Shown one piece after another: positions 25,707-40,200 of a DNA stretch of 59,951 nucleotides (its first letter is position 1; each line of letters begins with the position of its first letter). The stretch is from Gemmatimonadaceae bacterium (lineage in GTDB: Bacteria > Gemmatimonadota > Gemmatimonadetes > Gemmatimonadales > Gemmatimonadaceae). The notes under the pieces are model-generated. The model was given only the letters and a program-made list of their open reading frames with translations, had not been told where the DNA came from and made no database searches. The stretch is from positions 1-59,951 of the forward strand of contig JADZDM010000027.1 in the NCBI GenBank assembly GCA_020851035.1, in the 5' to 3' direction. A program made the translations under genes and the position numbers.

Positions 25707-26891
25707 CTAGAGGCGGAACAGGTCGGCCTGCATCGTGTCCGGCGTGACGAGCACGGTACCGGCCAGCGTCACGGCCACGTTCACCTCCGTGCGCATGCCG
25801 AAGCGCCCGGCGAGATACACGCCCGGCTCCACCGAGAACAGCACGCCCGGCAGCAGGTGGCGCTCCTCGCGGGTCTCGAAGCCATCCATGTGCGGGCCCG
25901 AGCCATGCAGGTCGCGCACGTCGATCGAGTGGCCCGTGCGGTGCGTGAACGCGGCACCGAAGCCGCGGGCCGTGATCACCGCGCGTGCCGCATCGTCCAC
26001 GTCCGCGCCACGCACCGTCAGGCCAGCCGCGAAGCCATCGCGCACCACCCGGATCGCCGCGTCGCGCGCGTCGCGGATCGCCTCCCACACCGGCAGCACG
26101 TCGGGATCCGCCGGTGTGCCGATGGTGGCCATCCACGTCTGGTCGGCGTACGGCTGGCCCGGTTCGCCGGCCCAGAGGTCGATCAGCAGCACGGAGTCCA
26201 TCGTGACCAGCGCGCTGCCATCGGCGTGCGGCTCGTAGTGCGGGTTCGCCGCATTGGCGCCCACGCTCACGTTGCACGGATGGGTGGTCACCAGGCCACG
26301 CGACGCGAACTCGCCCATGATCCACTGCTGCACGGCGTACTCGGTGAGCGGCGTGCCGGCGCGGGCAGCAGTGGCGGCGCGCTGCAGAGCCGCAGGGCCG
26401 ATCACGGCCAGCGCCTCGGCGGCGCGACAGTGCGCGGCGAGCTGCGCCTCGGTGAGCAGCGCGTAGAACCGCGTCACCAGCTCCGCCGAGGTCTCGACCG
26501 TGGCCCCGCAGGCGCGCACGAGGTCCAGCACGCCGCCCGGCACGCGATCGAGGTACGGCACCGCGTCACCCGGCGAGTACTCCATCGCGACGCGCTTCCC
26601 CTGCACCAGTGCGCGGATCTCTCCCTCGAGCGACTGCCACGACTGGTAGATCCGGCGCTCCCACGTGGCCGGCCATTTCCGCCACGAGTCGAGCTCGATG
26701 GCGTGCATCAGCGCCACCGGCGTGCCCTCGGCCGGGAGCCACGCCACCGCCCGGCGCGACGACAGCCCCTCGAAACCCAGCAGCCCCGACGCGATCGGGT
26801 TGCAGCCCTTGAACTCGTAGAGCAGCCAGCCGTCGAGGCGCGCTGCGCGCAACGCCGCCTGGATCTCGCTCAGCCGATGTGGTTCTCGCAT
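25707..26891 (-). CDS. M24-family Xaa-Pro-type aminopeptidase
   Basis: A 394-residue protein with a creatinase-type N-domain (about residues 1-145) and a pita-bread catalytic domain. The metal ligands are visible as Asp in SVLLIDLWAG, Asp in ADQTWM, His in HRTGHSIDV, Glu in FSVEPGVYL and Glu in RTEVNVAVT. Members hydrolyse peptides with proline in second position, but some are prolidase-like or creatinase-like; the substrate is not determined. It is the first gene of a contiguous run with the CDF transporter, DUF2490 protein and cupredoxin-like protein. Confidence 0.9.
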   Translation of the reverse strand: MREPHRLSEIQAALRAARLDGWLLYEFKGCNPIASGLLGFEGLSSRRAVAWLPAEGTPVALMHAIELDSWRKWPATWERRIYQSWQSLEGEIRALVQGKRVAMEYSPGDAVPYLDRVPGGVLDLVRACGATVETSAELVTRFYALLTEAQLAAHCRAAEALAVIGPAALQRAATAARAGTPLTEYAVQQWIMGEFASRGLVTTHPCNVSVGANAANPHYEPHADGSALVTMDSVLLIDLWAGEPGQPYADQTWMATIGTPADPDVLPVWEAIRDARDAAIRVVRDGFAAGLTVRGADVDDAARAVITARGFGAAFTHRTGHSIDVRDLHGSGPHMDGFETREERHLLPGVLFSVEPGVYLAGRFGMRTEVNVAVTLAGTVLVTPDTMQADLFRL

Positions 26892-26922: not shown

Positions 26923-27528
26923 TCAGCCGCGTCCCCACGTGGCCTTCCACTGCTGCCCGCGCCCGGTGCCGTCGATGCGGGTCACCACCGCCGGCGCGCC
27001 GGTCAGCGCCTCGAGCATGGCGGCGAAGGCCGACGCGTAGAACGCGAAGCCGGCGATCGCCGACCCCTCGATCGTCACCGGGTCGCTGACGGCGAGGATC
27101 ACCGATGCCCCGATCCGCTCCACGCGCGCATCCAGGTAGCGCTTCGCGAGGCGCCGGACCGTGGTCAGCGCAATGGGACGCGCCAGCACCCCGGGCAGCC
27201 GGCGGATCGCCGTGCGGCGGACCCGCGAGACGGTGTCGACCGCCTCGTGCGCCAGCAGCGTACCGGCGGAGTCGAAGACCCGGTGGGCGTCCGTGCGGCG
27301 CCCGATCAACCGTGCCAGCGCCGCCGCCTCGTCCCGCACGGTGCGCTCGTTGCGGCGCACGGCCTCGCCATAGCGCTTGATCTGCGCATACACGGTGTCG
27401 GTCAGGCCAAGCCGCTTCGTCCGCAGCTCCTCGATGTACTCGGCCTCGACGTCGCCCTCCGGGGTGTCCACCACGCGCACTGCTTCCAGCAGGCTCAGAG
27501 GCAGGCGGGCATCGACGGTCGCGGACAT
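26923..27528 (-). CDS. conserved-looking protein of unknown function
   Basis: A 201-residue soluble protein without signal or membrane segments. Helices rich in Arg/Glu fill residues 25-130, and the C-terminal part looks alpha/beta (IGASVILAVSDPVTIEGSAIAGFAFYASAFAAML). No family is recognised. The ATG at 27528 gives a natural N-terminus (MSATVDARLPLSLLEAVRV); a start at 27585 would add 19 Arg/Ser-rich residues. It lies 31 bp upstream of the M24 gene and may lead that operon. Confidence 0.65.
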   Translation of the reverse strand: MSATVDARLPLSLLEAVRVVDTPEGDVEAEYIEELRTKRLGLTDTVYAQIKRYGEAVRRNERTVRDEAAALARLIGRRTDAHRVFDSAGTLLAHEAVDTVSRVRRTAIRRLPGVLARPIALTTVRRLAKRYLDARVERIGASVILAVSDPVTIEGSAIAGFAFYASAFAAMLEALTGAPAVVTRIDGTGRGQQWKATWGRG

Positions 27529-27808
27529 CGGCAGGGATGATGGGGGGAGCGCCCGGTGTGACGCGTGGGCAGCGGAACGCCTCACAGCGAGGCACGTCCC
27601 TGCCGCAGCGGCACCGGATCGGACCGAAGCTATACCGAAGCGTGAAAGCGAACAAGCGACGGACTGACGCAGCGCAGGAACCGGGACGGCGTGTCACGGC
27701 TTCCGTATATTGTCGAGCGGTTCCCCCTTCCCAGACACCGGTGTTCAGGCGCATGCCCCACTCCCCTGTTCCCGGCTCCGCAGTCCAGCAGTCCGCCTGT
27801 CTCCCCGC

Positions 27809-28090
27809 ATGCTGACACGCCCCGCGCCGCAGGATGCCGCTGGCCACGACTGCGCGACCACCCGTCGCCAGGTCTTCGCGGCCTGCGACGGTGAGCTCAC
27901 GCCAGCGGAGCTCCGGGACATCGACGGGCATCTCTCGTCGTGTGCCGGCTGTCGTGCACACTTCACCGCCGATGCCACGCTGCACCACGTCGTGCGCGCG
28001 GCGGCACGCCTGGATGCGGCGCCGCCCGGCCTGCGCGAGCGGGTGGAGCGACTCCTGCACGCGCACACCACCGAGAACGCGCCGGCGTGA
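27809..28090 (+). CDS. zinc-finger anti-sigma-like protein (zf-HC2)
   Basis: A 93-residue protein with the ZAS signature HLSSCAGCRAHF (His41, Cys45, Cys48) preceded by a helix with another conserved region (ATTRRQVFAACDGELT). It has no membrane helix, like soluble anti-sigma factors. No sigma gene adjoins it; the nearest in the window is about 26 kb away. Its stop overlaps the GTG of the DUF92 gene, so it is the first gene of the operon running to 33902 and could regulate that pathway. Confidence 0.75.
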   Translation: MLTRPAPQDAAGHDCATTRRQVFAACDGELTPAELRDIDGHLSSCAGCRAHFTADATLHHVVRAAARLDAAPPGLRERVERLLHAHTTENAPA

Positions 28091-28893
28091 CGCTGCCGCC
28101 ACTGGTCTCAGCCGCGCTCGGACCGGTGGTGGCTGCAATCGTGTGGCGGGCGGGGACACTCACCGCCGGCGGCGCCGTGACCGCCGCACTCATCGGCAGC
28201 ACCAGCGCACTGGCCGGCCTGGACTGGATGTGCATCCTGCTGGCCTTCTTCGTCAGCAGCGTGCTGCTTGGCCGTGTGGGCCGCGAGCGCAAGCGGCAGC
28301 GCAGTGCCGCCGTCATCGGCAAGGCCGGTGCGCGTGACGCGATGCAGGTGCTCGCGAATGGCGCTGTCTTCGCGCTCGGTGCGGCAGCGGCCGCATCGGG
28401 CCGCGGCACCGACGCCATCGCCGCGATCGCACTCGGTGCCGTGGCAGCGGCCACCGCCGACACCTGGGGCACCGAGATCGGCATGCTCGCCGGCGCGCCG
28501 CCACGCTCGATCCTCACCGGCGCGCCGCTCGAGCCCGGGATGTCGGGGGGCGTGACCGCACAGGGACTGATCGCCACCGCCGCAGGCGCGATCACCCTCG
28601 CGACACTGGCGTGGGCACTGGGCTGGCCGGGGCGCGTGGTCATCGCGGCCGCAGCGGGCGGAGCGGCGGGCGCGATGGCCGACTCGGTCATCGGCGCCAC
28701 GTTGCAGCAACGGCGGCGCTCGCCAGGCACCGGACGCCTCACGGAACGCCTGCGCGACGATGACGGTACGCCTACCGAGTGGGCCGGCGGTGTGCGCTGG
28801 CTGGACAACGACGGCGTGAACTTCGCCGCCACCTGCATCGGCGCCGGCATCGCATTCGAACTGCATCACCTCATGACCCGAGGCGCGGCGTGA
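28087..28893 (+). CDS. DUF92 family integral membrane protein (VTE6-like)
   Basis: A 268-residue protein from a GTG, with about seven helices. DUF92 signatures include KAGARDAMQVLANG, ATADTWGTEIGML, GGVTAQGLIATAAGA and DSVIGATLQ, and the C-terminal WLDNDGVNFAAT. The family's one well-known plant member, VTE6, phosphorylates phytyl phosphate; bacterial members are mostly unassigned. Overlap on both sides (GTGA with the zf-HC2 and the reductase genes) links it to a geranylgeranyl-reductase-like enzyme, which suggests prenyl-lipid metabolism. Confidence 0.85.
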   Translation: MTLPPLVSAALGPVVAAIVWRAGTLTAGGAVTAALIGSTSALAGLDWMCILLAFFVSSVLLGRVGRERKRQRSAAVIGKAGARDAMQVLANGAVFALGAAAAASGRGTDAIAAIALGAVAAATADTWGTEIGMLAGAPPRSILTGAPLEPGMSGGVTAQGLIATAAGAITLATLAWALGWPGRVVIAAAAGGAAGAMADSVIGATLQQRRRSPGTGRLTERLRDDDGTPTEWAGGVRWLDNDGVNFAATCIGAGIAFELHHLMTRGAA

Positions 28894-30152
28894 CGCGCGG
28901 CCCGCAGCACGCGCAGGCCATCGTGGTCGGCGCCGGTCCCGCCGGCGCGGCCGCGGCGTGGGCGCTGGCGTCGCAGGGAATCGACGTGCTGATGCTCGAC
29001 AAGGCCACCTTCCCGCGCGACAAGCCGTGCGCCGAGTACCTCAGCCCGCAGGGATCACGGATCCTGGATGCGATGGGCGTGCTCGGCGAGGTGGAGGCGG
29101 CAGGCGCCGCCCAGCTCACCGGCATGCGCGTGCGCAGCCCCGATGGCGGCGTGATTCACGGCGAGTTCGCCGCGCAGCACGGCTTCACCGGCTTCCGTGA
29201 CCGCGGCCTCGCGCTGCGACGGCGCCGCCTCGATCCCATCCTCCAGCAGGCCGCCATCCGCGCCGGCGCGCGGCTGATGGAGCATGCCTCGGTGGAGTCG
29301 CTGCTGACCGACGGCGGCACCGTGTCGGGTGTGCGCGTGCGCGTGGACGGCACCGTACGCGCGCTGAATGCGCCACTGGTGATCGGGGCCGACGGGTTGC
29401 GCAGCATCGTGGCGCGTCGCATGGGCCTGGAGGCGCGCCTGCCGTGGCCGCGCCGCGTGGCGTTCGTGGCGCACTGGCGGCAGGTGCGCGGCATCGGCGC
29501 ACAGGGCGAGATGCACGTCGAGCGCGATGGCTACGTAGGCCTGGCCGACGTGGGCCACGGCGAGACGAACGTGGCGATCGTCGTCCCCCGCCGCCTCGCC
29601 CGCGAGGCCGCCGGTGACGCGGCCGGCTTCATGGCACGCTGGCTGGCGCGCCATCCGCAACTCGCGCCCCGCTTCGAGGGTGCCACGCGGACCGGCCCGG
29701 TGCAGGTGACCGGACCGTTCGCCTCGCACGCCAGGCGTGGTGCCGCCGCCGGAGTGGCGCTGGTGGGCGACGCGGTGGATTTCTTCGATCCCTTCACCGG
29801 CGAGGGGATCTATGCCGCGCTGCGCGGTGGTGAACTGCTCGGTGGGTACGCCGCCGACGCGGCCGCCGCGCCAACACCCGCTGCCGCGTTCCGCGCCCTG
29901 CAGGCGTACGATGCGGCGCGCACGGCGGAGTTCCGCCAGAAATGGGTCGTCGAGCGCGTGATCGGCGCCGCCGTGTCGTCGCCGATGCTCATGAACCATG
30001 CGGCGCGCGTGCTCGGCGCGCGCCGCGACCTCGCCGACCTGCTCGTCGGCGTCACCGGGGACTTCGTGCCGGCGCGGGCCGTGCTCAGCCCCGCATTCCT
30101 GCTGCACTTCCTCGACCCGCGACGCTGGCGCCTGCCGCGTCGCGCCACCTGA
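28890..30152 (+). CDS. geranylgeranyl-reductase-family FAD oxidoreductase
   Basis: A 420-residue flavoprotein starting with GTG. The N-terminal FAD site is VVGAGPAGAAAAW, followed by DKATFPRDKPCAEYLSP, with the Cys and Pro typical of the GGR family. The second FAD motif is VGDAVDFFDPFTGEGI. The family reduces prenyl double bonds (geranylgeranyl to phytyl, archaeal lipids, menaquinone) or oxidises polyketide-like substrates. It overlaps DUF92 by four bases and is followed 4 bp later by a flavin reductase gene. Confidence 0.87.
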   Translation: MTRGPQHAQAIVVGAGPAGAAAAWALASQGIDVLMLDKATFPRDKPCAEYLSPQGSRILDAMGVLGEVEAAGAAQLTGMRVRSPDGGVIHGEFAAQHGFTGFRDRGLALRRRRLDPILQQAAIRAGARLMEHASVESLLTDGGTVSGVRVRVDGTVRALNAPLVIGADGLRSIVARRMGLEARLPWPRRVAFVAHWRQVRGIGAQGEMHVERDGYVGLADVGHGETNVAIVVPRRLAREAAGDAAGFMARWLARHPQLAPRFEGATRTGPVQVTGPFASHARRGAAAGVALVGDAVDFFDPFTGEGIYAALRGGELLGGYAADAAAAPTPAAAFRALQAYDAARTAEFRQKWVVERVIGAAVSSPMLMNHAARVLGARRDLADLLVGVTGDFVPARAVLSPAFLLHFLDPRRWRLPRRAT

Positions 30153-30156
30153 CCTC

Positions 30157-30633
30157 ATGCCGATCGACAAGGATCTCTACCGCGCCGTGCTGGGCCGGTT
30201 CGCCAGCGGCGTCACCATCGTCACCACCATCGACGCCGAGGGACGCGACCACGGCATGACCGTGAGTGCGTTCTCGTCGCTGTCGCTGGATCCGCCGCTG
30301 GTGCTGGTCTGCATCGACCACACCGCCTCGGTGTGGCCTGCCTTCCGCGATGCCCGCGTGCTCGCCGTGAACATCCTGTCGTCGTCACAGGAGGCGCTCT
30401 CACGCCGCTTCGCGAGCCGCGATGGGGACCGGTTCGAGGGCGTGGGCTTCACGCGCGGCAGCGACGGGGTGGTGCTGCTCGACGACACGCTCGCCGCCGT
30501 CGAGTGCACCGTGGTCGACTGCATCGCGCACGGCGACCACTCGATCCTGGTCGGCCGCGTGGATGCCGGCATGGCGCGCGACCTGCAGCCGCTGCTCTAC
30601 TACCGCGGTGGGTATGCCTCACTCACCCGCTGA
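30157..30633 (+). CDS. flavin reductase domain protein
   Basis: A 158-residue protein of the flavin-reductase-like FMN-binding split-barrel family: FASGVTIVTTIDAEGRDHGMTVSAFSSLSLDPPLVLVCI, interrupted here by normal loops, and the C-terminal GDHSILVGRV and YYRGGYASL segments. It would reduce FMN or FAD with NAD(P)H and hand it to a partner oxygenase or flavoenzyme. The nearest candidate is the preceding FAD oxidoreductase, 4 bp upstream. Confidence 0.9.
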   Translation: MPIDKDLYRAVLGRFASGVTIVTTIDAEGRDHGMTVSAFSSLSLDPPLVLVCIDHTASVWPAFRDARVLAVNILSSSQEALSRRFASRDGDRFEGVGFTRGSDGVVLLDDTLAAVECTVVDCIAHGDHSILVGRVDAGMARDLQPLLYYRGGYASLTR

Positions 30634-30642
30634 CCGGCGCGC

Positions 30643-31344
30643 GTGGGCCTGCTGACGCCCGCCCGGCGCATGGGCCACGAGGTGCTCGACGAGCCCGGCG
30701 TATCACCCGACCTCGTGATGCGCTCGCATCGCGACATCACCCGCGCCAATGCGCTCTTCGGCGGCACGCGCGCCGTCGTCGCCCGTGTGCGCGCGATCGA
30801 GCACCGCCTCCCCGCCTCCCCGCTGGTGGTGGACGTCGGCGCCGGCAGCGGCGACATCCTCGACGCCGTCTGCGCCGTGCTCCGCGACGGGGGGCGCCGG
30901 CCGCGCCCGGTTGCCGTCGACACTGCGGTCGCGCTCGCGCCCGCCGTGCGGCAGCGCGGCAGTCACTTCATCTGCGGCTCGATCTTTGCGCTGCCGCTCG
31001 CGACGGCTGCCGCCGATCTCGTGATCGCGGCGCAGGTGATCCATCATTTCCCGCACCACGACGTACATTCCGTCCTTGCCGAGTTGAATCGCGTGGCACG
31101 CCACGCCGTGCTCGTCAGTGACCTGCGCCGGAGCTGGATCGCGGCGGCGGGACTCTGGGCCAGCAGCTTTCCGCTCGGGTTTCATCCGGTCAGCCGTCAC
31201 GACGGGGTTGTCAGTGTGCTGCGAGGCTTCGCACCTGAGGAACTCCGGAGCGCGATTCGGCAGGCCACCGGTGCCACGGCCGACGTGCACACGCATCTCG
31301 GCTGGCGCGTGACCGCAGACTGGCACCCCGGACACGCCGCGTGA
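30643..31344 (+). CDS. class I SAM-dependent methyltransferase
   Basis: A 233-residue protein from a GTG. The SAM-binding motif I is VVDVGAGSGDILD, with the later strand PVAVDTAVAL and the motif DLVIAAQVIHHF. The N-terminal segment (EVLDEPGVSPDLVMRSHRDI, N, GGTRA) resembles methyltransferases that sit beside polyketide synthase and FAD oxidoreductase genes in other bacteria; this is from memory of family patterns. A small-molecule or lipid methyl acceptor is likely. Confidence 0.82.
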   Translation: MGLLTPARRMGHEVLDEPGVSPDLVMRSHRDITRANALFGGTRAVVARVRAIEHRLPASPLVVDVGAGSGDILDAVCAVLRDGGRRPRPVAVDTAVALAPAVRQRGSHFICGSIFALPLATAAADLVIAAQVIHHFPHHDVHSVLAELNRVARHAVLVSDLRRSWIAAAGLWASSFPLGFHPVSRHDGVVSVLRGFAPEELRSAIRQATGATADVHTHLGWRVTADWHPGHAA

Positions 31345-31384
31345 CGTCGCGCGCGCCGGCCCCGCATCACATCCACGCACGCCC

Positions 31385-31921
31385 ATGACCTCTCCCACGA
31401 CGGACCGGCTCCGCTCGCCCTATCGCCTCGGCCCCATGCCGCTGCAGCGCCACATGATCATCGTGGACGAGCAGACCGTGCAGGCGCCGCGGGACGTGAT
31501 CTTCGCCGTCGCGAAGGACGTGCTGGCCTGGCCGGACCACCTCCCGCACTACCGGTTCGTGACCTTCCGCCAGCGATCACGCGATGGCGGCGGCCTGGTG
31601 GAGATGAGCGCGAACCGGCCCTTCGGCGGACCACTCGACTGGCCCACCTGGTGGCTCTCCGAGATGAGCGTGGACGAGACGGTGCCGAACATCCGGTTCC
31701 GGCACGTCCAGGGCATCACGACCGGCATGGAGGTCGAGTGGCAGTTCGTGCGCCGCGACGATGCCGTCACGCATGTGCGCATCGTGCACGCCTGGGACGG
31801 CCCCTGGTGGCCGCTGGTCGGCCGCGTCGCCGCCATGGCGGTGATCGGCCCGGTGTTCATCCATGGCATCGCCTCACGCACCCTCGCCGGCCTCGCACGC
31901 GCGGCCGAGCAGCGCACCTGA
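31385..31921 (+). CDS. SRPBCC (polyketide cyclase/START-like) protein
   Basis: A 178-residue protein with the helix-grip fold pattern: an initial strand MIIVDEQTVQAPRDVIFAVA, DVLAWPDHLPHYRFV with the usual WP motif, central antiparallel strands (EVEWQFVRRDDAVTHVRIVHAW), and a long C-terminal helix (about residues 140-175). Members include polyketide aromatase/cyclases and coenzyme Q-binding COQ10 proteins. Between a methyltransferase and a ketosynthase it may bind or cyclise the pathway intermediate. An internal ATG at residue 18 is an alternative start. Confidence 0.8.
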   Translation: MTSPTTDRLRSPYRLGPMPLQRHMIIVDEQTVQAPRDVIFAVAKDVLAWPDHLPHYRFVTFRQRSRDGGGLVEMSANRPFGGPLDWPTWWLSEMSVDETVPNIRFRHVQGITTGMEVEWQFVRRDDAVTHVRIVHAWDGPWWPLVGRVAAMAVIGPVFIHGIASRTLAGLARAAEQRT

Positions 31922-31949
31922 TCCGCTTCCTTCCCACACCGCCCCCCCG

Positions 31950-33194
31950 ATGTCCTCTCCCCGTCGCGTCGTCATCACCGGCATTGGCGCGATCACCCCG
32001 ATCGGCATCGGGCTCGATTCGCTCCGCGCCTCCCTCCGCACCGGCAAGTCGGCGGTGGGCATGCTCACCCGGTTCGACCCCAGCCCTTTCCGCACGCACA
32101 TCGCGGCCCAGGTCAACGACTTCGTCCCGGAAGACCACCTCGACTCGAAGCGCGTGAAGCGGCTGGATCGCTTCGGCCAGTTCAGCGTGACCGCCGCCAA
32201 CATGGCGCTCGCGGACGCCGGCATCGACATGGCGCGGGAATCGCGCGAGAACGTCGGTGTCATGATGGGCACCGCCCTGGCCGGCGTCGGCTATGCCGAG
32301 GAGCAGCTCGGGCGCTACCTCACCGGCGGCCTGCGTGCGGTGGACGCCACGCTCGCGCTGGCCGTCTTCGGCGGGGCGTCGAGCTGCAACATCGCGATCG
32401 AGACCGGGGTGCAGGGCCCCAACTGCACCAACGCGATGAGCTGCGCGTCGGGTGCGATGGCGATCGGCGAGGCGTACCGCCAGGTGCGTGACGGCTACGC
32501 CGACGTGATGATCGGCGGCGGCGCGGAGGCCCCGCTGGCGCCGCTCTGCTTCGGCGCCTTCGCACTCATCCGCGCGATGTCCACCCGCAACGAGGATCCC
32601 GGTGCGGCCAGCCGTCCCTTCGACGCCGGCCGCGATGGCTTCGTGATGGGCGAGGGGGGCGCGGCGCTGATCCTCGAGGAGCGCTCCCGTGCCCTCGCGC
32701 GCGGCGCCCGCATCTACGCCGAGATCGTCGGCTACGGCACCACCAACGACGCGCACCACATGACCGCACCGCTGCCCGGCGGCGCCCAGGCCGCGCGGGC
32801 CATGCGCCAGGCGCTCTCCCGCGCCGACCTCGCCCCCGCCGACGTGGAGTACGTCAACGCCCACGCCAGCGCCACGCCGCTCAACGACCCCACCGAGGTC
32901 GAGGCCATGCGCACCGTCTTCGGTGATTCGCTCGACGACATCTGGGTCAGCGGCACCAAGGGATTCCACGGCCACGCCCTGGGCGCCAGCGGTGCCATCG
33001 AGGCCGTGATCTGCATGCTCGCGATGCAGGACGGATACCTGCCACCCACCGCGAACCTCGTCGAGACGGACGCCGCCTGCCAGCTCCGGCACCTCCCAGC
33101 CGCCGGCGTGGCCATGTCCCCGCGCGTCGTCATGTCGAACTCGTTCGGATTCGGCGGGATCAACGCCTCCCTCGTGTTCCGCGAGGCGACGTGA
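31950..33194 (+). CDS. beta-ketoacyl-ACP synthase (FabF-like ketosynthase)
   Basis: A 414-residue thiolase-fold condensing enzyme of FabF length. The Cys-His-His triad is intact: Cys165 (MSCASG), His305 (VNAHAS) and His342 (HGHALGASGA), almost the same numbers as E. coli FabF (163/303/340). The context around them is atypical: SCASG in place of TACAT and KGFHGH in place of KSMTGH, which suggests a specialised ketosynthase. No acyl-carrier protein, chain-length factor or ketoreductase gene is beside it. It is seventh in the operon. Confidence 0.87.
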   Translation: MSSPRRVVITGIGAITPIGIGLDSLRASLRTGKSAVGMLTRFDPSPFRTHIAAQVNDFVPEDHLDSKRVKRLDRFGQFSVTAANMALADAGIDMARESRENVGVMMGTALAGVGYAEEQLGRYLTGGLRAVDATLALAVFGGASSCNIAIETGVQGPNCTNAMSCASGAMAIGEAYRQVRDGYADVMIGGGAEAPLAPLCFGAFALIRAMSTRNEDPGAASRPFDAGRDGFVMGEGGAALILEERSRALARGARIYAEIVGYGTTNDAHHMTAPLPGGAQAARAMRQALSRADLAPADVEYVNAHASATPLNDPTEVEAMRTVFGDSLDDIWVSGTKGFHGHALGASGAIEAVICMLAMQDGYLPPTANLVETDAACQLRHLPAAGVAMSPRVVMSNSFGFGGINASLVFREAT

Positions 33195-33233
33195 CCCCCT
33201 AACTTGGGCTGACTTCCAACCGATCAGGACGCC

Positions 33234-33902
33234 ATGAAGCCAGCCCGCGAGTTCGTCGCCGAGTTCCTCGGCACCTTTGCCCTCACGTTCATCGGCGGCG
33301 CCGCCATCATGCAGACGCGCAATGTCGATGCCGGCGCCGGCCTGGTGGAGGTGGCGCTCGCGCATGGGCTGGTGCTCTTCGTGATGGTCAGCGCGCTGAT
33401 GAAGATCAGCGGCAACTTCAATCCCGCGGTGTCCATCGGACTGCTCGTCACCGGGCGGATCACGCCGATGGAGGCGGGCACCTTCATCGCCGGACAGTTC
33501 ACCGGCGCCATCGTCGCCGCCCTCTCGCTGAAGGGGCTCTTCCCGGCCGCGCTCTGGGAGTCGTCACGCGGCACGCGGCAGATGGTCTCGCTGGACGTGA
33601 CCACCGGCCAGGCCTTCGCCCTCGAGGCGATCGCGACCGGCTTCCTGATGACCGCCGTCATGGGCACTGCGGTAGACGGCAAGGGTCCGAAGATCGGCGG
33701 CCTCGCCGTCGGCCTCACGCTCACGGCGTGCATCCTCGGCATCGGCCCGCTCACGGGCGGAAGCCTGAATCCCGCCCGCACGATCGGGCCGATGGTCGCG
33801 ACCGGCGTGTTCGAGGGCCTGGCGCTCTACCTCGCAGCGCCGATCGTCGGTGCCGTGGTCGCCGCACTGCTGTATCGCCACCTCATGCTCGACACCGAGT
33901 GA
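33234..33902 (+). CDS. MIP/aquaporin family channel
   Basis: A 222-residue, six-helix channel with both pore motifs intact: NPAVS (63-65) and NPART (179-181). Length and the short loops fit water-selective aquaporins or the bacterial AqpZ/plant-NIP-like group more than glycerol facilitators (which carry a longer insertion after the second NPA). It is 39 bp downstream of the ketosynthase on the same strand and just before a strong hairpin, so it may be in the operon by position only. Confidence 0.92.
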   Translation: MKPAREFVAEFLGTFALTFIGGAAIMQTRNVDAGAGLVEVALAHGLVLFVMVSALMKISGNFNPAVSIGLLVTGRITPMEAGTFIAGQFTGAIVAALSLKGLFPAALWESSRGTRQMVSLDVTTGQAFALEAIATGFLMTAVMGTAVDGKGPKIGGLAVGLTLTACILGIGPLTGGSLNPARTIGPMVATGVFEGLALYLAAPIVGAVVAALLYRHLMLDTE

Positions 33903-33970
33903 CTGGCGCCAGCGTGCGTGGCGCCACGGCGTGACCGCCGCCCAGGCGCACCGCCCTGACGGATGAACGA

Positions 33971-34010
33971 GGAGCGGGGCGGCCTTCGTGTCTGAAGGCC
34001 GCCCCGCTCC
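33971..34010. terminator. 17-bp perfect hairpin between convergent genes
   Basis: Positions 33971-33987 pair with 33994-34010 around a GTGTCT loop. It lies 68 bp after the aquaporin stop and 30 bp beyond the stop of the opposite lipoprotein gene, so it can serve both strands. No U tract. Confidence 0.8.
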
Positions 34011-34040
34011 CGTGTCACGCCCCAGCAGCGCGGAGCGCCG

Positions 34041-34718: not shown

Positions 34719-35267
34719 TCAGGCACCCGCCGAACCCGCACCGTACTTCGCGTCGTAGCGGTCGATGCTCTGCGTGATGATCCGCATCGCTTCCGCGGCG
34801 TCGAACCAGCCGATGATCTCCACCCGCTTCCCCTCGAGGTCCTTGTAGATCTTGAAGAAGTGCTCCACCTCGCGCAGGAAGTGGCTCGGCAGGTCTTCCA
34901 GGTCGTGGACCTCGTCGTGGATGGGGTCGTGCATCGGCACGGCCAGCACCTTGTCGTCGGGCTCGCCCTTGTCGAGCATCTTCAGCACGCCGACCGGACG
35001 CGCGTCGATCTGGCACCCCGGAAACGTGGGCTCGTTGATCCGGACCATGATGTCGAGCGGGTCGTTGTCCTCGTGCAGCGTGCGTGGGATGAACCCGTAG
35101 TCGCCGGGATAGTGCACCGCCGAGTAGAGCACGCGGTCGAGCTTCAGCAGGCCGCTCTGCTTGTCGAGCTCGTACTTGTTCCGGCTCTTCGCCGGGATCT
35201 CGATCACCGCCGTGACGTGCTCGGGCGGCTTGTCACCGGGCGGAAGGTCGTGCCATGGATTGAACAT
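34719..35267 (-). CDS. ppa: inorganic pyrophosphatase (family I)
   Basis: A 182-residue soluble family I pyrophosphatase of normal bacterial length. Characteristic pieces are IEIPAKSRNKYELDK, YPGDYGFIPRTLHEDNDPLDIMV (the substrate loop and Asp ligands), GEPDDKVLAVP and the C-terminal HFFKIYKDLEGK. It hydrolyses PPi from biosynthetic reactions. It has its own intrinsic terminator; 85 bp separate its start from the hemB stop upstream, so co-transcription with hemB is possible. Confidence 0.97.
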   Translation of the reverse strand: MFNPWHDLPPGDKPPEHVTAVIEIPAKSRNKYELDKQSGLLKLDRVLYSAVHYPGDYGFIPRTLHEDNDPLDIMVRINEPTFPGCQIDARPVGVLKMLDKGEPDDKVLAVPMHDPIHDEVHDLEDLPSHFLREVEHFFKIYKDLEGKRVEIIGWFDAAEAMRIITQSIDRYDAKYGAGSAGA

Positions 35268-35352
35268 TTACATGGAATTCGTGAGGGGCGCGCCGCGGGT
35301 CCTTCCGCGGCACACCAACAGGATAGCAGACCTCGGAAGGGCGACGGCGGAC

Positions 35353-36390
35353 TCAGCGGCCGGCAGCGATCGCCCGCGCCGCCGCGACGGCGAAGTACGT
35401 CAGGATGATGTCCGCCCCGGCCCGCCGGATCGCCATCAGGCTCTCCAGCATCGCACGTTCCAGGTCCAGCCAGCCCCGCTCCGCCGCAGCGTGGAGCATC
35501 GCGTACTCCCCGCTCACCTGATACGCAGCAACCGGCATGCCCGTCACGTCCTTCACGCGCCGGATGATGTCCAGGTATGCACCGGCGGGCTTCACCATCA
35601 GGATGTCGGCACCCTCCGCCATGTCCTGCGCCACCTCCCGGATCGCCTCGTCGGAGTTGGCCGGATCCATCTGGTACGCGCGGCGGTCTCCGAAGGCGGG
35701 TGTGCTCTCCGCCGCCTCCCGGAACGGTCCGTAGAAGGCGCTCGAGTACTTCGCCGCATACGACATGATCGGGATGTGTGCATGCCCGTGTTCGTCGAGC
35801 GCCTGACGGATCGCGCCCACCCGCCCGTCCATCATGTCGCTGGGTGCCACCATGTCCGCCCCCGCCTCGGCATGCATCACCGCCTCGCGCGCCAGCAGCT
35901 CCAGGGTGCTGTCATTGTCCACCTGCTCGCCATGCAGCAGCCCGCAGTGCCCGTGGTCGGTGTACTCGCACATGCAGACGTCGGTGATCACCAGCAGCCC
36001 CGGCACCGCCGCCTTGATTGCCCGGATCGCCTCGGCCACCGGGCCATCGGCGTCCCAGGCCCCCGACCCCGTGGCGTCCTTCGTGGCCGGGATCCCGAAC
36101 AGGATCACCCCCCCGACGCCCGCCGCCGCCGCTGCCACCGCATCCTTCACGCACTCGTCCACCGACGTCTGGGCGCACCCCGGCATCGACGAGATCGGCT
36201 GGCGGATGCCGGCGCCCGGCCGCACGAAGAGCGGGAGGATGAATTGTGACGGATGGAGGTGCGTCTCGCGCACCAGAGCCCGCATCGCGGGGGTGCTCCG
36301 GAGCCGGCGCAGCCGGACTGCCGGGAAGAGCGCGCCAGCCGGAGGGGCAGCGGCACTGCCCAGGGACGGGGTCGGGAGTGTGGAAGCCAT
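35353..36390 (-). CDS. hemB: porphobilinogen synthase (5-aminolevulinate dehydratase)
   Basis: A 345-residue protein with a low-complexity first 20 residues and then the complete PBGS fold. The zinc site is Cys139, Cys141 and Cys149 ([13 protein letters not shown]), so this is a zinc-dependent type. Schiff-base lysines are Lys214 (MSYAAKY) and Lys267 (LMVKPAG). It condenses two aminolevulinates to porphobilinogen. The ATG at 36390 is chosen; an ATG 18 bases upstream is possible. hemC and hemD follow about 1 kb away behind an oppositely oriented gene. Confidence 0.96.
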
Positions 36391-36709
36391 ACCGCAGAGA
36401 ATACCCATCGATCGGGGACCGTCCAGCGGGCCCGCCGCTGGTGTGGCACCGACGCACCGCCCCGGCAGAGTGTTGGTGCCGAGCGACACCCTGTCGCACG
36501 CCCACCCACCGCGCACGGTGCCGTCAGGCGTCGCCGCGGCGAACGCCGGGGCCGGTAACCCGATGCCCTGCAGGATCTTGCGCTCCGGCTGGGTCCGCTG
36601 ATTGGGAGCGGCCAATCTCCCGTACCTGCCCGTCCCGTCAGGCACGGCTAGTGCGCTGGTGAGGTCCAGATACCGGCGTTGTGACTGCCTCCCATTTTCT
36701 GAGCCTTCC
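36391..36709. promoter_or_regulatory. 319-bp divergent intergenic region between hemB and a PEP-CTERM gene
   Basis: No gene or clear repeat was seen. Both flanking genes start outward, so promoters for both must lie here. I could not assign -35/-10 elements or operators with confidence. Confidence 0.4.
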
Positions 36710-37411
36710 ATGAAGCGTACCCTTCGTCTTGCCGCTGCGGCCATGCTCGCCACCTCCACGGCCGGCGCCCAGACGCTCCTGCTCGACACCTTCGACGCCG
36801 AGAACGGCGGCAACTCCGCCCTGAACTACGCCACCTTCGGCCAGTGGAACGTCGTCGGTGCCGTGGACCTCGTGAAGAGCGGCGACTTCGGCATCTCCTG
36901 CGTCGGCGGCGTCGGCGCCTGCGTGGACCTGAGCGGCACCGCCAGCTCGAGCGGCAGCCTGATCAGCAAGACCGCCTTCTCGTTCAGCGCCGGCGACCTC
37001 GTGGGTGTCTCGTTCATGGCCAGCGGTAACCAGCGCGGCTATGCCGATGACCTGCTGAACCTCACGCTGAACTTCTCGTCGTCCACCACCTTTGCGTCCT
37101 ACGCGGTGGACCTCGGCGGCGCCGCGTTCTCCGGTGGACCGCTGCTCGTCGGGGGCGGATACGGCGTCGGCCGGCTCATCGGCAGCTCGGAAGCGTTCTC
37201 GCTCTGGACCATCCAGTTCGTTGCCGCGAATGCGGGCAGCTTCACCGTCGGCATCGGCACGACGAGCGACGACAATGTCGGCCCGATGATCGACGACGTG
37301 AACATCGGCATCGCCGCCGGCACCGTCGTGCCGGAGCCGGCCACCTGGACGCTGATGCTCAGCGGCCTCGGGATGCTGGGCGTCGCCGCACGCCGCCGCC
37401 GCAAGGCCTGA
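36710..37411 (+). CDS. PEP-CTERM sorting-domain protein
   Basis: A 233-residue exported protein with a signal peptide (cleavage after AGA near residue 20). The middle is a beta-rich region without a named domain, resembling extracellular matrix PEP-CTERM proteins. The C-terminus is a classical tripartite PEP-CTERM signal: VPEPATW, a hydrophobic helix ([14 protein letters not shown]) and a basic RRRRKA end. Exosortase would cut near the PEP motif. No exosortase gene is in the window. A strong hairpin follows the stop. Confidence 0.9.
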
Positions 37412-37427
37412 GTTCTCCGGAGCTATG

Positions 37428-37463
37428 CGAGCGGGGGGACACCAACCGGTGTCCCCCCGCTCG
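37428..37463 (+). terminator. 16-bp perfect hairpin after the PEP-CTERM gene
   Basis: Positions 37428-37443 pair with 37448-37463 around an AACC loop, 16 bp after the stop. On the plus strand TGTTTCG follows, a weak U-rich tail. It may also insulate the convergent hemC message. Confidence 0.75.
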
Positions 37464-37513
37464 TGTTTCGCCAAGGCATCCGGCCCCGCCGCAGCGTGCC
37501 ACCAGCGTGGATA

Positions 37514-38476
37514 TCACCCTGCGTCGCGCGCCGCCGCCGTCGCTGCCCGGGCGGTGGCCAGGATGCCGGCCGCCCCGGCCTCGCGCAACTCGGCCGCCAG
37601 CGCCTCCGCACTGGCCACCAGGTCCGCCCCGACCACCGCGCTGGCACGCAGCATCGGCGTGCCGTCCAGACCGGCCACGAGACCATGCAGCGTGCGCCGG
37701 CCGCCTTCCGACTCCGTCATCAGCGCCCCGATCGGCACCTGACAGCCCCCGTCCAGCGCGGCCAGGAAGGCACGCTCACAGGTGGTGGCGTCCATCGTCG
37801 GCTGGTGATTCAGCCGCTCGATGATCGAGCGCACCGCCGTGTCATCACCCCGCACCTGGATGGCGATGGCCCCCTGGCCCGCCGCCGAGAGCCACTCCGG
37901 CGCCCCGAGGTAGCTGCGGATGCGCGACGCCAGGCCAAGGCGATTGAGGCCGGCCGACGCCAGGATCGCCGCATGGCAGAGCCCCTTGTCCAGTTTCGAG
38001 AGTCGCGTGCCGACGTTGCCGCGCAGGTCCACCACCGTGCAGTCGGGGCGCAACGCCTTGAGCTGGGCCCGGCGCCGCAGGCTCGAGGTGCCGATGATCG
38101 CGCCATGCGGCAGCTCGTGCAGGAGCGCCCCGGGCACGTCGTCGCGCACCACCAGCGCATCACGCGAATCCTCGCGCGGGAGCTGCGCCACCACCGTCAG
38201 CCCGGCCGGCTCCTCCGTCGGCAGGTCCTTCAGCGAATGCACGCAGAGGTCGGTGACCCCGTCGCGCAGGTCGCGCTCGAGTTCCTCCGTGAACAGTCCC
38301 TTGCTGCCGATCGCCGTCAGCGCCACGTCGAGCCGCCGGTCGCCGACGGTGGTGTAGGTGACGAGCTCACTCGCCACGCCGATCGCGAGCAGCTCGGCCT
38401 GCACCTGGTGTGCCTGCGCGAGGGCCAGCGCCGAGGAACGGGTGCCGATCTTCAGTGACCGCGACTCTGAGCTCAT
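37514..38476 (-). CDS. hemC: hydroxymethylbilane synthase (porphobilinogen deaminase)
   Basis: A 320-residue enzyme of normal length. It has KIGTRSSALALAQ at the N-terminus, GSKGLFTEELE, the active-site region VHSLKDLPT, GTSSLRRRAQL, and Cys245 in LDGGCQVPIGA, which carries the dipyrromethane cofactor. It polymerises four porphobilinogens. Its start overlaps the hemD stop by four bases, and it ends the ccmABCD-hemD-hemC run. Confidence 0.97.
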   Translation of the reverse strand: MSSESRSLKIGTRSSALALAQAHQVQAELLAIGVASELVTYTTVGDRRLDVALTAIGSKGLFTEELERDLRDGVTDLCVHSLKDLPTEEPAGLTVVAQLPREDSRDALVVRDDVPGALLHELPHGAIIGTSSLRRRAQLKALRPDCTVVDLRGNVGTRLSKLDKGLCHAAILASAGLNRLGLASRIRSYLGAPEWLSAAGQGAIAIQVRGDDTAVRSIIERLNHQPTMDATTCERAFLAALDGGCQVPIGALMTESEGGRRTLHGLVAGLDGTPMLRASAVVGADLVASAEALAAELREAGAAGILATARAATAAARDAG

Positions 38477-39291
38477 GTCTGGTGTGTCTGGTGATGTTGA
38501 CGGTCACGCTGGGCCTGGACGGCGCGCACCACGGCGGCCACCAGCCCATCGAGTGTTGAGGGCATGGCCTCGGCGGCCACCCGCATGCCCGCGGCGCGCG
38601 CGGCCTGCGTGGTCACCGGACCGATCGAGACCGCGTCGGCCACGTCATGGAGGGGCGACATGGCGCCGACCCACGCGGCGACAGCACTGCTGGCGGTGAG
38701 CGTGACGGCGTTCACGCGCCCCTCGCGCAGCGCCGCCAGCACCTCGGCCACGTCCTCGTCGGTGGCGACGCTGTCGTAGGCCTCGACGCGATCCACCGTC
38801 GCCCCCATCGCGCTGAGGCCATCGGTCAGCTCACGACGCGCGCCGGCGGCGGCGGGATAGAGCACCAGTGTGCCAGCAACGTCGTTCCGCGCCGCGAAGG
38901 CCTCGAGCAGCCCCTCGGCCACGAACCGTTCCGGCACCAGCGTCGGCTCCACGCCCCGCTCGCGGATCGCACTCGCCGTCGAGGTGCCGACGGCCGCCAC
39001 GCGGGTGTGCACCCAGTCGGCCGCGGTCACGCCGCAGGCCGCGGTGGCCTCGAACGTCAGTGCCACCGCCGTCGCACTCGTGAACAGCACCCAGTCATAG
39101 CGGGCGAGCTCGCGCGCTGCCTGCCCCAGCGCCTCGACATCGCGGGTGACGATGCGCGTGGCCGCATACGTGAGCACGGTCGCGCCGAGGGCCTCGAGCG
39201 GCCCGGCCAGCTGGTCGGCACGGGATGCCGCCCGCGTCACCACGATCGTCGCCCCCGACAGCGGCCGCGCGCCATCGGCGGTCATCGCCAC
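38473..39291 (-). CDS. hemD: uroporphyrinogen-III synthase
   Basis: A 272-residue two-domain protein of the HemD fold: IVVTRAASRADQLAGPLEALGA at the start, DWVLFTSATAV in the first half, and the second-domain pieces VAAVGTSTASAIRERGV and VNAVTLTASSAVAAWV. Sequence conservation is low across the family, so the call leans on these pieces and on the four-base overlap with hemC. It inverts ring D of hydroxymethylbilane. Confidence 0.92.
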   Translation of the reverse strand: MAMTADGARPLSGATIVVTRAASRADQLAGPLEALGATVLTYAATRIVTRDVEALGQAARELARYDWVLFTSATAVALTFEATAACGVTAADWVHTRVAAVGTSTASAIRERGVEPTLVPERFVAEGLLEAFAARNDVAGTLVLYPAAAGARRELTDGLSAMGATVDRVEAYDSVATDEDVAEVLAALREGRVNAVTLTASSAVAAWVGAMSPLHDVADAVSIGPVTTQAARAAGMRVAAEAMPSTLDGLVAAVVRAVQAQRDRQHHQTHQT

Positions 39292-39322
39292 CCGCCCTGC
39301 GGAACGCGCACGACCCGGGCAC

Positions 39323-39463
39323 TCACTGCCGCGCAGCTGGATCGATCGCGTCCCCGCGGCGAGTCATCTCCCGGGCCCGCAGCACGAGCGCGATCACGTA
39401 GCCGATGCAGAGCAGTGCGGCCGTGCCGTACGCCGCGAACATGTAGCCGGCATTCTCGGGCAT
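39323..39463 (-). CDS. ccmD: CcmD-like small heme exporter subunit
   Basis: A 46-residue protein with one transmembrane helix (about residues 10-28) and a basic cytoplasmic side ending LRAREMTRRGD. Size, topology and position right after ccmC (ATGA overlap at 39463) match CcmD, which holds CcmE at the CcmABC complex and releases holo-CcmE. Sequence similarity in so small a protein cannot by itself prove it. Confidence 0.75.
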   Translation of the reverse strand: MPENAGYMFAAYGTAALLCIGYVIALVLRAREMTRRGDAIDPAARQ

Positions 39464-40200
39464 CAGGCCTCTCCCATCTCGAGGGCCTCGACGCGGTCGC
39501 GCAGCGCCGCATACTTCAGCCGCGCCCGGAGCAGTGCCACCAGGAGCAGCGCGAACGCGAGGAACGCGAGCGACAGCGTCATCCCCATCTCCGCCGACAG
39601 CTTCGGCTTCTCCGGCGCGAGCACGATCGGCTGCGGATGCATGGTGCGGAACAGGCGCACGCTGAGGTGGATGAACGGCACCAGCATCGCGGCCAGGATG
39701 CCCAGCACCGCCGAGTAGCGCGCCCGCTGCTGCCGGTCCTCGATGGCCCCTCGCAGCACCGTGTAGCCCAGCAGGATGAACCAGAGGAAGAGGGTGCTCG
39801 TCAGCCGCGCGTCCCACGTCCACCAGGCGCCCCAGATCGGCTTCGCCCACATCGGACCCGTCACCAGCACGATCGTCAGGAACACCAGCGCGATCTCGGC
39901 CGAGCTCTCGGCCAGCCGGTCGAGGCGGTCGTCACGCAGCCACAGGTACATCGCCCCGCCGATCGCCACCAGCGGGCAGGCGACGTAGAGCCCCATCACC
40001 GCCGCCGGCACGTGGATGTAGAAGATCTTCTGCGCCTCGCCCTGCATCGCCTCAGGCGGGGTGAACCAGATCGCACGGGCCGTGACGGCCACGAGTGCGA
40101 CGACTGCCAGCGCCAGCAGCCAGTCGAAGACCGCCACCGGCGCCCGCGAGGGGCGTCCGGCGCCGGCCGACGGCAGCGGGCGCGCAAGAGTATCAGACAT
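39463..40200 (-). CDS. ccmC: heme exporter permease CcmC
   Basis: A 245-residue, six-helix protein of the heme-handling family. The WWD-type signature is WGAWWTWDARLTSTLFLW, and IFYIHVPAAVMGL supplies one axial His; another lies in PFIHLSVRLFRTMHP. It presents heme to CcmE in cytochrome c maturation. There is a 101-bp gap with hairpins between it and ccmB, unlike the overlaps elsewhere in this operon. Confidence 0.94.
   Translation of the reverse strand: MSDTLARPLPSAGAGRPSRAPVAVFDWLLALAVVALVAVTARAIWFTPPEAMQGEAQKIFYIHVPAAVMGLYVACPLVAIGGAMYLWLRDDRLDRLAESSAEIALVFLTIVLVTGPMWAKPIWGAWWTWDARLTSTLFLWFILLGYTVLRGAIEDRQQRARYSAVLGILAAMLVPFIHLSVRLFRTMHPQPIVLAPEKPKLSAEMGMTLSLAFLAFALLLVALLRARLKYAALRDRVEALEMGEA

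Follow-up and report, generated by a model that had tools for sequence, protein, structure and literature searches.

A conserved methyltransferase, FAD enzyme, SRPBCC protein and ketosynthase locus in Gemmatimonadota is a candidate polyketide pathway to phenolic lipids

Planctomycete operons of the hidABC type (58 operons), which encode a methyltransferase (MT), an FAD-dependent enzyme and a type III polyketide synthase (T3PKS), give alkylresorcinols on expression of the T3PKS, and hidABC leads to hierridin in cyanobacteria (PMC10896814). Related operons make electron-carrying alkylquinones (PMC9927152). In this report, we describe a locus of the Gemmatimonadota in which an SRPBCC protein and a FabF-family ketosynthase (KS) stand where the T3PKS would be expected. 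It lies in a 59,951-nucleotide stretch, here called the window, which is contig C27 (JADZDM010000027.1) of the 4.97 Mb, 95.7% complete genome of a Gemmatimonadaceae bacterium (GCA_020851035.1). Eight plus-strand open reading frames, with starts taken from the sequence, occupy positions 27809-33902 (Table 1). A preliminary description of this DNA had seen in them eight co-directional genes with overlaps or gaps of at most 40 bp and a closing hairpin; the reading frames, Pfam matches and folding energy agree, with neighbours overlapping by 4 and 4 bp and then separated by 4, 9, 40, 28 and 39 bp. We propose, with a probability of roughly 0.6, that a core of MT, FAD enzyme, SRPBCC protein and KS constitutes a polyketide phenolic-lipid pathway, in which the KS and the SRPBCC protein would do the job of a T3PKS.

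The order DUF92, FAD enzyme, flavin reductase, MT, SRPBCC, KS and aquaporin recurs in 20 divergent loci from the window's own order, Gemmatimonadales; it is thus not a chance arrangement, nor is it confined to this genome, as the preliminary description had allowed. By tblastn, the FAD enzyme, flavin reductase, SRPBCC and KS genes were each found in all 20 of these loci, the MT gene in 19 (locus L057 gave no match), DUF92 in 18, the aquaporin gene in 17 and zf-HC2 in four. Among 39 long loci from GTDB genomes, the KS is present in every one and the FAD enzyme, flavin reductase and MT in 38 each, with all four together in 38. By profile search, 55 of 60 relatives have the SRPBCC protein, as do 170 of 298 genomes of the phylum (81 of 119 genera); most of these genomes are metagenome-assembled, and absences can be assembly gaps. 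Spread beyond the phylum was gauged by one scan of contigs for SRPBCC, in which the best 80 of 213 loci were nearly all titled Gemmatimonadota, one having a Kuenenia title and one being unidentified. The former, a contig whose title names Candidatus Kuenenia stuttgartiensis, has a locus of the Gemmatimonadota type (SRPBCC identity 59%) and is probably a mislabelled metagenome-assembled genome. The plasmids searched gave no SRPBCC match.

Other families of the class have a locus reduced to MT-FAD-SRPBCC-KS, which is the gene order in f4, f5, f7 and f9. The Longimicrobiaceae-like family f6 has the set split into SRPBCC-KS and MT-FAD loci, with all four genes kept in the three genomes checked (3/3). 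Genomes of family f1 that are devoid of SRPBCC have nearly always lost MT and FAD as well; the exceptions show decay, SRPBCC and KS having been lost together in one (G084, where ppa, the next of the conserved genes, has come to follow MT) and MT, SRPBCC and KS in the other (G191). This co-retention and co-loss across the class identifies MT, FAD enzyme, SRPBCC and KS as the functional unit. The earlier idea that all eight genes serve one pathway is therefore not supported: only these four travel together class-wide, DUF92, zf-HC2 and the aquaporin are accessory, and linkage of the flavin reductase is limited to Gemmatimonadales.

The distribution of this core was compared with that of T3PKSs. 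A T3PKS scores above the cut-off in 32 of the 298 genomes, four of which also have SRPBCC, as against 170 of 298 overall (Fisher test, 5e-8, uncorrected for phylogeny). Family f5 has a T3PKS in 25 genomes and SRPBCC in nine, with an overlap of 0, and the mutual exclusion holds inside genera g47 and g76. Ten of the 20 T3PKS loci that were read have the order MT-FAD-T3PKS, with an MT and an FAD enzyme homologous to those of the window (27-39% identity), and such cassettes occur in two families of the phylum. SRPBCC was found in none of the ten cassette genomes (0/10), and all ten are without the SRPBCC-KS pair; in three of them (G095, G101 and G244), a check for an additional FabF-like KS of the kind in the operon gave none. 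In G054 and G127, no gene of the genome is a better match than the cassette MT and FAD genes. Where SRPBCC and a T3PKS coexist, the T3PKS loci of three of the four genomes were examined and none has the MT-FAD-T3PKS order; the fourth genome belongs to f6. Genus g47 contains a swap. G132 and G186 keep the native locus. In G054, the M24, upA, DUF92 and flavin reductase genes are still in place there, FAD, MT, SRPBCC and KS have been lost from it, and MT-FAD-T3PKS is found on a different contig. The leftover flavin reductase would presumably serve the incoming FAD enzyme.

The two kinds of cassette share their enzyme families. The best model for the MT of both is NF004851 (PRK06202), with 102 bits for the MT of the window versus 189 and 232 for T3PKS-linked MTs, and that for the FAD enzyme of both is TIGR02032; all of these scores are below the equivalog cut-offs. 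In trees, the SRPBCC-KS-linked FAD enzymes form one group that follows taxonomic families, and the genes of MT-FAD-T3PKS form the other, which includes a plasmid cassette of Paludisphaera. This separate clade with its plasmid member suggests a horizontally moving cassette and led us to reject an in-place exchange of the T3PKS within one ancestral locus. Thus, there are two sister cassette types, of which the T3PKS one is apparently mobile. The same triad is annotated elsewhere, in identical order in Paludisphaera (Planctomycetota) and in variant orders in Sphingobium and Roseomonas (Alphaproteobacteria). Both kinds of polyketide enzyme occur in one operon on a Sphingobium yanoikuyae plasmid, where genes for an acyl carrier protein (ACP), a KS, a T3PKS, an MT and an FAD enzyme adjoin.

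The KS retains its Cys-His-His triad, as had been noted, and this triad is invariant, along with a Lys and the Phe gate, in 23 of 23 operon KSs. The altered motifs also reported for it are present, namely NAHASAT and KGFHGH, but occur only in this genus and in a few of its relatives; the usual forms in the family are NAHGSST and KGYYGH. A tree of 57 KSs places the 23 operon enzymes in one clade (support 100/99) and the phylum's 20 housekeeping FabFs in another (92/80). The operon clade joins the KS-alpha subunits of actinobacterial type II polyketide synthases (PKSs) at 96/93, and not with FabF; this placement by KS-alpha is provisional, with only three KS-alpha rows and operon KSs of a single phylum in the tree. 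A housekeeping FabF, adjoined by AcpP, is encoded separately in the genome, and every SRPBCC-positive genome tested has both the operon KS and FabF. The KS is consequently neither a member of the FabF clade nor the only such enzyme in its genome, the two findings that would have spoken for a housekeeping role.

We also agree with the preliminary description as to what is missing. No PF02797 match to a T3PKS was found in the genome and none is hidden in the locus; no chain-length factor (CLF, or KS-beta) is among the KS matches of the genome, which otherwise comprise FabF, a type I PKS and a KS with the Cys, and the operon and its surroundings have none either. An ACP is likewise missing from the operon and its flanks: all PF00550 matches fall elsewhere in the genome, the AcpP next to FabF included. 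We therefore uphold the view that this is an unassigned, conserved polyketide-like pathway outside the standard clusters of both type II and type III. Elsewhere in the genome, a FabF-like KS with an intact Cys-His-His triad and 31-36% identity to FabFs (C33:22946-24214) has an ACP-like match about 4 kb away (C33:18494) and possibly belongs to another small pathway.

The best solved relatives of the SRPBCC protein by profile are BexL, WhiE-ORFVI and TcmN, and its AlphaFold model (pLDDT 92.4) retrieves ZhuI, TcmN and BexL at Foldseek ranks 1-7. By both profile and fold, aromatase/cyclases (ARO/CYCs) of type II PKSs precede other START proteins. The positions of TcmN W28, Y35, W65 and S67 are conserved in the alignment (numbering as we deduced it from the R69A entry 2res). 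Met94 aligns with R69, the catalytic Arg of TcmN, and His107 with R82. Met94 was invariant in the first 21 sequences and is at least 90% conserved or invariant in 44. We propose that the protein is a polyketide cyclase.

The FAD protein was first described as geranylgeranyl-reductase-like, a label that we cannot uphold. Its top model, TIGR02032, scores 142.6 bits against a cut-off of 158.8; GYVGLADV replaces the aromatic/Pro motif (YxWxFP-type) of the pocket of geranylgeranyl reductases (GGRs); and its homologues lie beside T3PKSs in alkylresorcinol-type operons. The structural model (pLDDT 94.7) has FasV, Bmp2, ChlB4, PqsL and an archaeal GGR as its nearest folds, that is, FADH2-dependent halogenases, PqsL and GGR. 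We likewise rejected a role as an FADH2-dependent halogenase: WxWxIP is absent, the alignment having GWxWxIP in halogenases and gyvGlapv in the family of the window. We propose instead that the enzyme is an oxygenase that oxidises a ring. The neighbouring flavin reductase, which scores below the cut-offs of the HsaB, HpaC and StyB families, probably supplies it with FADH2, and their adjacency fits an FAD enzyme that uses free reduced flavin. SrsB was considered as a homologue of the MT and rejected, being an enzyme of the isoprenylcysteine carboxyl methyltransferase type.

In the pathway that we infer from these comparisons, the CLF-less KS would iteratively extend an acyl-ACP with unreduced malonyl units, the carrier probably being the housekeeping AcpP. 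The TcmN/ZhuI-like SRPBCC protein would fold and aromatise the resulting short poly-beta-ketone to an alkyl-phenol or alkylresorcinol-type ring, which the PRK06202-family MT would methylate and the FAD enzyme, with FADH2 from the flavin reductase, would oxidise. The final product could be an alkyl(hydro)quinone. The KS and SRPBCC protein, as a CLF-less, type II-like pair, would accordingly fill the slot that the T3PKS occupies in hidABC-type operons. A methylated, cyclised acyl product, as guessed in the preliminary description, fits this scheme; the prenyl or reduced part of that guess is unsupported.

Several facts weigh against the proposal. The operon encodes no CLF and no ACP. The pocket and catalytic set of the putative cyclase differ from those of TcmN, because Met and His take the places of R69 and R82. 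The identity of MT and FAD enzyme between the two cassette types is only about 30-39%, and with their separate clades these enzymes need not share a substrate. Four genomes hold both SRPBCC and some T3PKS, and the exclusion is partly confounded by lineage.

The alternative that survives best, although we regard it as unlikely, is that the KS elongates fatty acids in a specialised role, with the SRPBCC protein as a lipid-binding or START-type carrier and a modified (hydroxylated, methylated) non-aromatic acyl lipid, lacking a ring, as the product. The absent CLF and ACP and a pocket without the Arg of TcmN would suit such a pathway, as would the score of the KS against the FabF equivalog model, 486.5 against a cut-off of 493.75, which the KS of L147 exceeds. 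(A score so near the cut-off also means that routine annotation may label the KS as FabF and overlook the pathway.) However, the KS stands apart from FabF in the tree, ARO/CYCs outrank other START proteins as matches to the SRPBCC protein, the MT and FAD enzyme are homologous to those of ring-tailoring cassettes, and the partner in both exclusion and swap is a ring-making synthase.

Less likely still is that the two cassettes, MT-FAD-SRPBCC-KS and MT-FAD-T3PKS, belong to secondary pathways that have nothing to do with each other, and that they exclude one another through lineage history without being interchangeable. The Fisher test leaves room for this explanation, uncorrected as it is, and so do the separate cassette clades and the concentration of T3PKS genomes mostly in one family, f5; yet the exclusion recurs within genera g47 and g76, the cassettes are found in two families, and G054 lost exactly the four core genes while keeping the flavin reductase. 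A prenyl-lipid pathway, in which DUF92 would be a prenyl-phosphate kinase like VTE6 of plants and the FAD protein would act as a GGR on the prenylated product, would suit the upstream position of DUF92 in 18 of 20 loci and TIGR02032 as the top model, but is highly improbable for an operon without a prenyltransferase, an FAD protein that is below that model's cut-off and devoid of the W/P pocket motif, and a DUF92 gene that has no match in the f4-f9 loci that keep the core and that was left behind in G054 despite the loss of FAD.

The product of the accessory gene zf-HC2 has the ZAS motif Hx3Cx2C and scores 48.8 bits against the RsrA model TIGR03988 (cut-off 62.5). A conserved SigR-like extracytoplasmic-function (ECF) sigma gene heads the operon in the family f2 loci L055-L058, which suggests stress control, perhaps thiol-redox control, and in L055 and L058 it is followed by a zf-HC2 homologue. 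No sigma gene lies beside zf-HC2 in the window; because of the pairing in those two f2 loci, we take its product as a probable anti-sigma factor, separated from the gene for its sigma factor. The gaps between the DUF92 and FAD genes of relatives were considered as sites of a T3PKS, but hold either a radical SAM gene of the B12-binding kind or reading frames unrelated to one. That radical SAM gene, inserted in L048, L052 and L054, is a candidate for a C-methylating or other extra tailoring step. The aquaporin has no match in other orders and is frequently the last gene in Gemmatimonadales.

Table 1. Features of the operon and its closing hairpin (positions in the window)
Feature	Position	Strand	Match or remark
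zf-HC2 / ZAS anti-sigma-like protein (RsrA-like, HDC...HLSSCAGC)	27809..28090	+	PF13490 33.5 bits; peripheral, regulatory
DUF92 integral membrane protein	28087..28893	+	PF01940 188 bits; neighbour kept in Gemmatimonadales only
FAD-dependent oxygenase-like enzyme (GGR/halogenase/PqsL fold)	28890..30152	+	FAD_binding_3 82 bits; core
Flavin reductase (HpaC/HsaB/StyB type)	30157..30633	+	Flavin_Reduct PF01613 151 bits
Class I S-adenosylmethionine (SAM) methyltransferase (MT), PRK06202 family	30643..31344	+	Methyltransf_11 41 bits; NF004851 102 bits; core
SRPBCC aromatase/cyclase-like protein	31385..31921	+	Polyketide_cyc 26 bits; core
FabF-family ketosynthase (KS), separate clade	31950..33194	+	ketoacyl-synt 148 bits + C-domain 128; core
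MIP/aquaporin	33234..33902	+	PF00230 153 bits; peripheral
Strong hairpin between convergent transcripts	33968..34012 (about)	.	-43.2 kcal/mol, z -9.0

The hairpin has no U run and is likely a terminator, possibly a bidirectional one. Beyond it, on the minus strand and convergent with the operon, lie ppa, hemB, hemC, hemD and a cytochrome c assembly gene (34719-40200); these neighbours are compatible with a respiratory link but no proof of one. Upstream and divergent, a gene for a 220-residue protein without a Pfam match (26923-27585, minus strand) is conserved together with an M24 peptidase gene (25707-26891) in nearly all loci.

Gemmatimonadota are common in soil and freshwater, and few natural products are known from them. 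In the open-access literature, we found nothing relevant on the phylum in connection with alkylresorcinol, hierridin or ketosynthase, although an earlier description elsewhere is possible. If the proposal of a phenolic-lipid pathway is correct, over half of the Gemmatimonadota genomes sampled are predicted to encode an unreported class of lipids, and two unrelated chemistries, a T3PKS and a CLF-less FabF-like KS with its cyclase, would be interchangeable modules in one widespread phenolic-lipid/quinone pathway. The locus would also offer a simple system for the origin of aromatic type II PKSs from fatty-acid synthase without a CLF. A more far-reaching version, to which we give somewhat less than an even chance, is that the type II-like KS-cyclase pair builds an aromatic lipid independently of a CLF on the housekeeping ACP, is ancestral in the class Gemmatimonadetes, is functionally exchangeable with the unrelated T3PKS of the same alkylresorcinol/quinone pathway, and possibly makes a phylum-specific membrane quinone.

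Among known systems, the hidABC-type operon shares with this locus a homologous PRK06202-type MT, followed by a homologous FAD enzyme and then by the ring-forming polyketide enzyme or enzymes, all in one direction. It differs in having a T3PKS where the window has SRPBCC and KS; further, the Gemmatimonadales add a dedicated flavin reductase, and the MT and FAD enzyme of the window type form a separate clade with vertical-looking inheritance. The srsABC operon of Streptomyces griseus and pkqABC of mycobacteria follow the same logic of ring synthase, methyltransferase and FAD oxygenase (PMC9927152, PMC6669644), but their synthase is type III, and SrsB is an isoprenylcysteine-carboxyl-type methyltransferase whereas the MT of the window is a class I SAM enzyme. 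Housekeeping FabF (KAS II) belongs to the same superfamily as the operon KS and has about 44% identity and identical catalytic residues, yet the operon KS is a separate gene in a separate clade. Finally, the type II PKSs with ARO/CYCs (R1128 with ZhuI, tetracenomycin with TcmN, WhiE, and BE-7585A with BexL) resemble the locus in the intact active site of the KS, the KS-alpha grouping and the SRPBCC ARO/CYC fold; unlike them, the locus has no CLF, dedicated ACP or ketoreductase, and Met and His replace R69 and R82 of TcmN.

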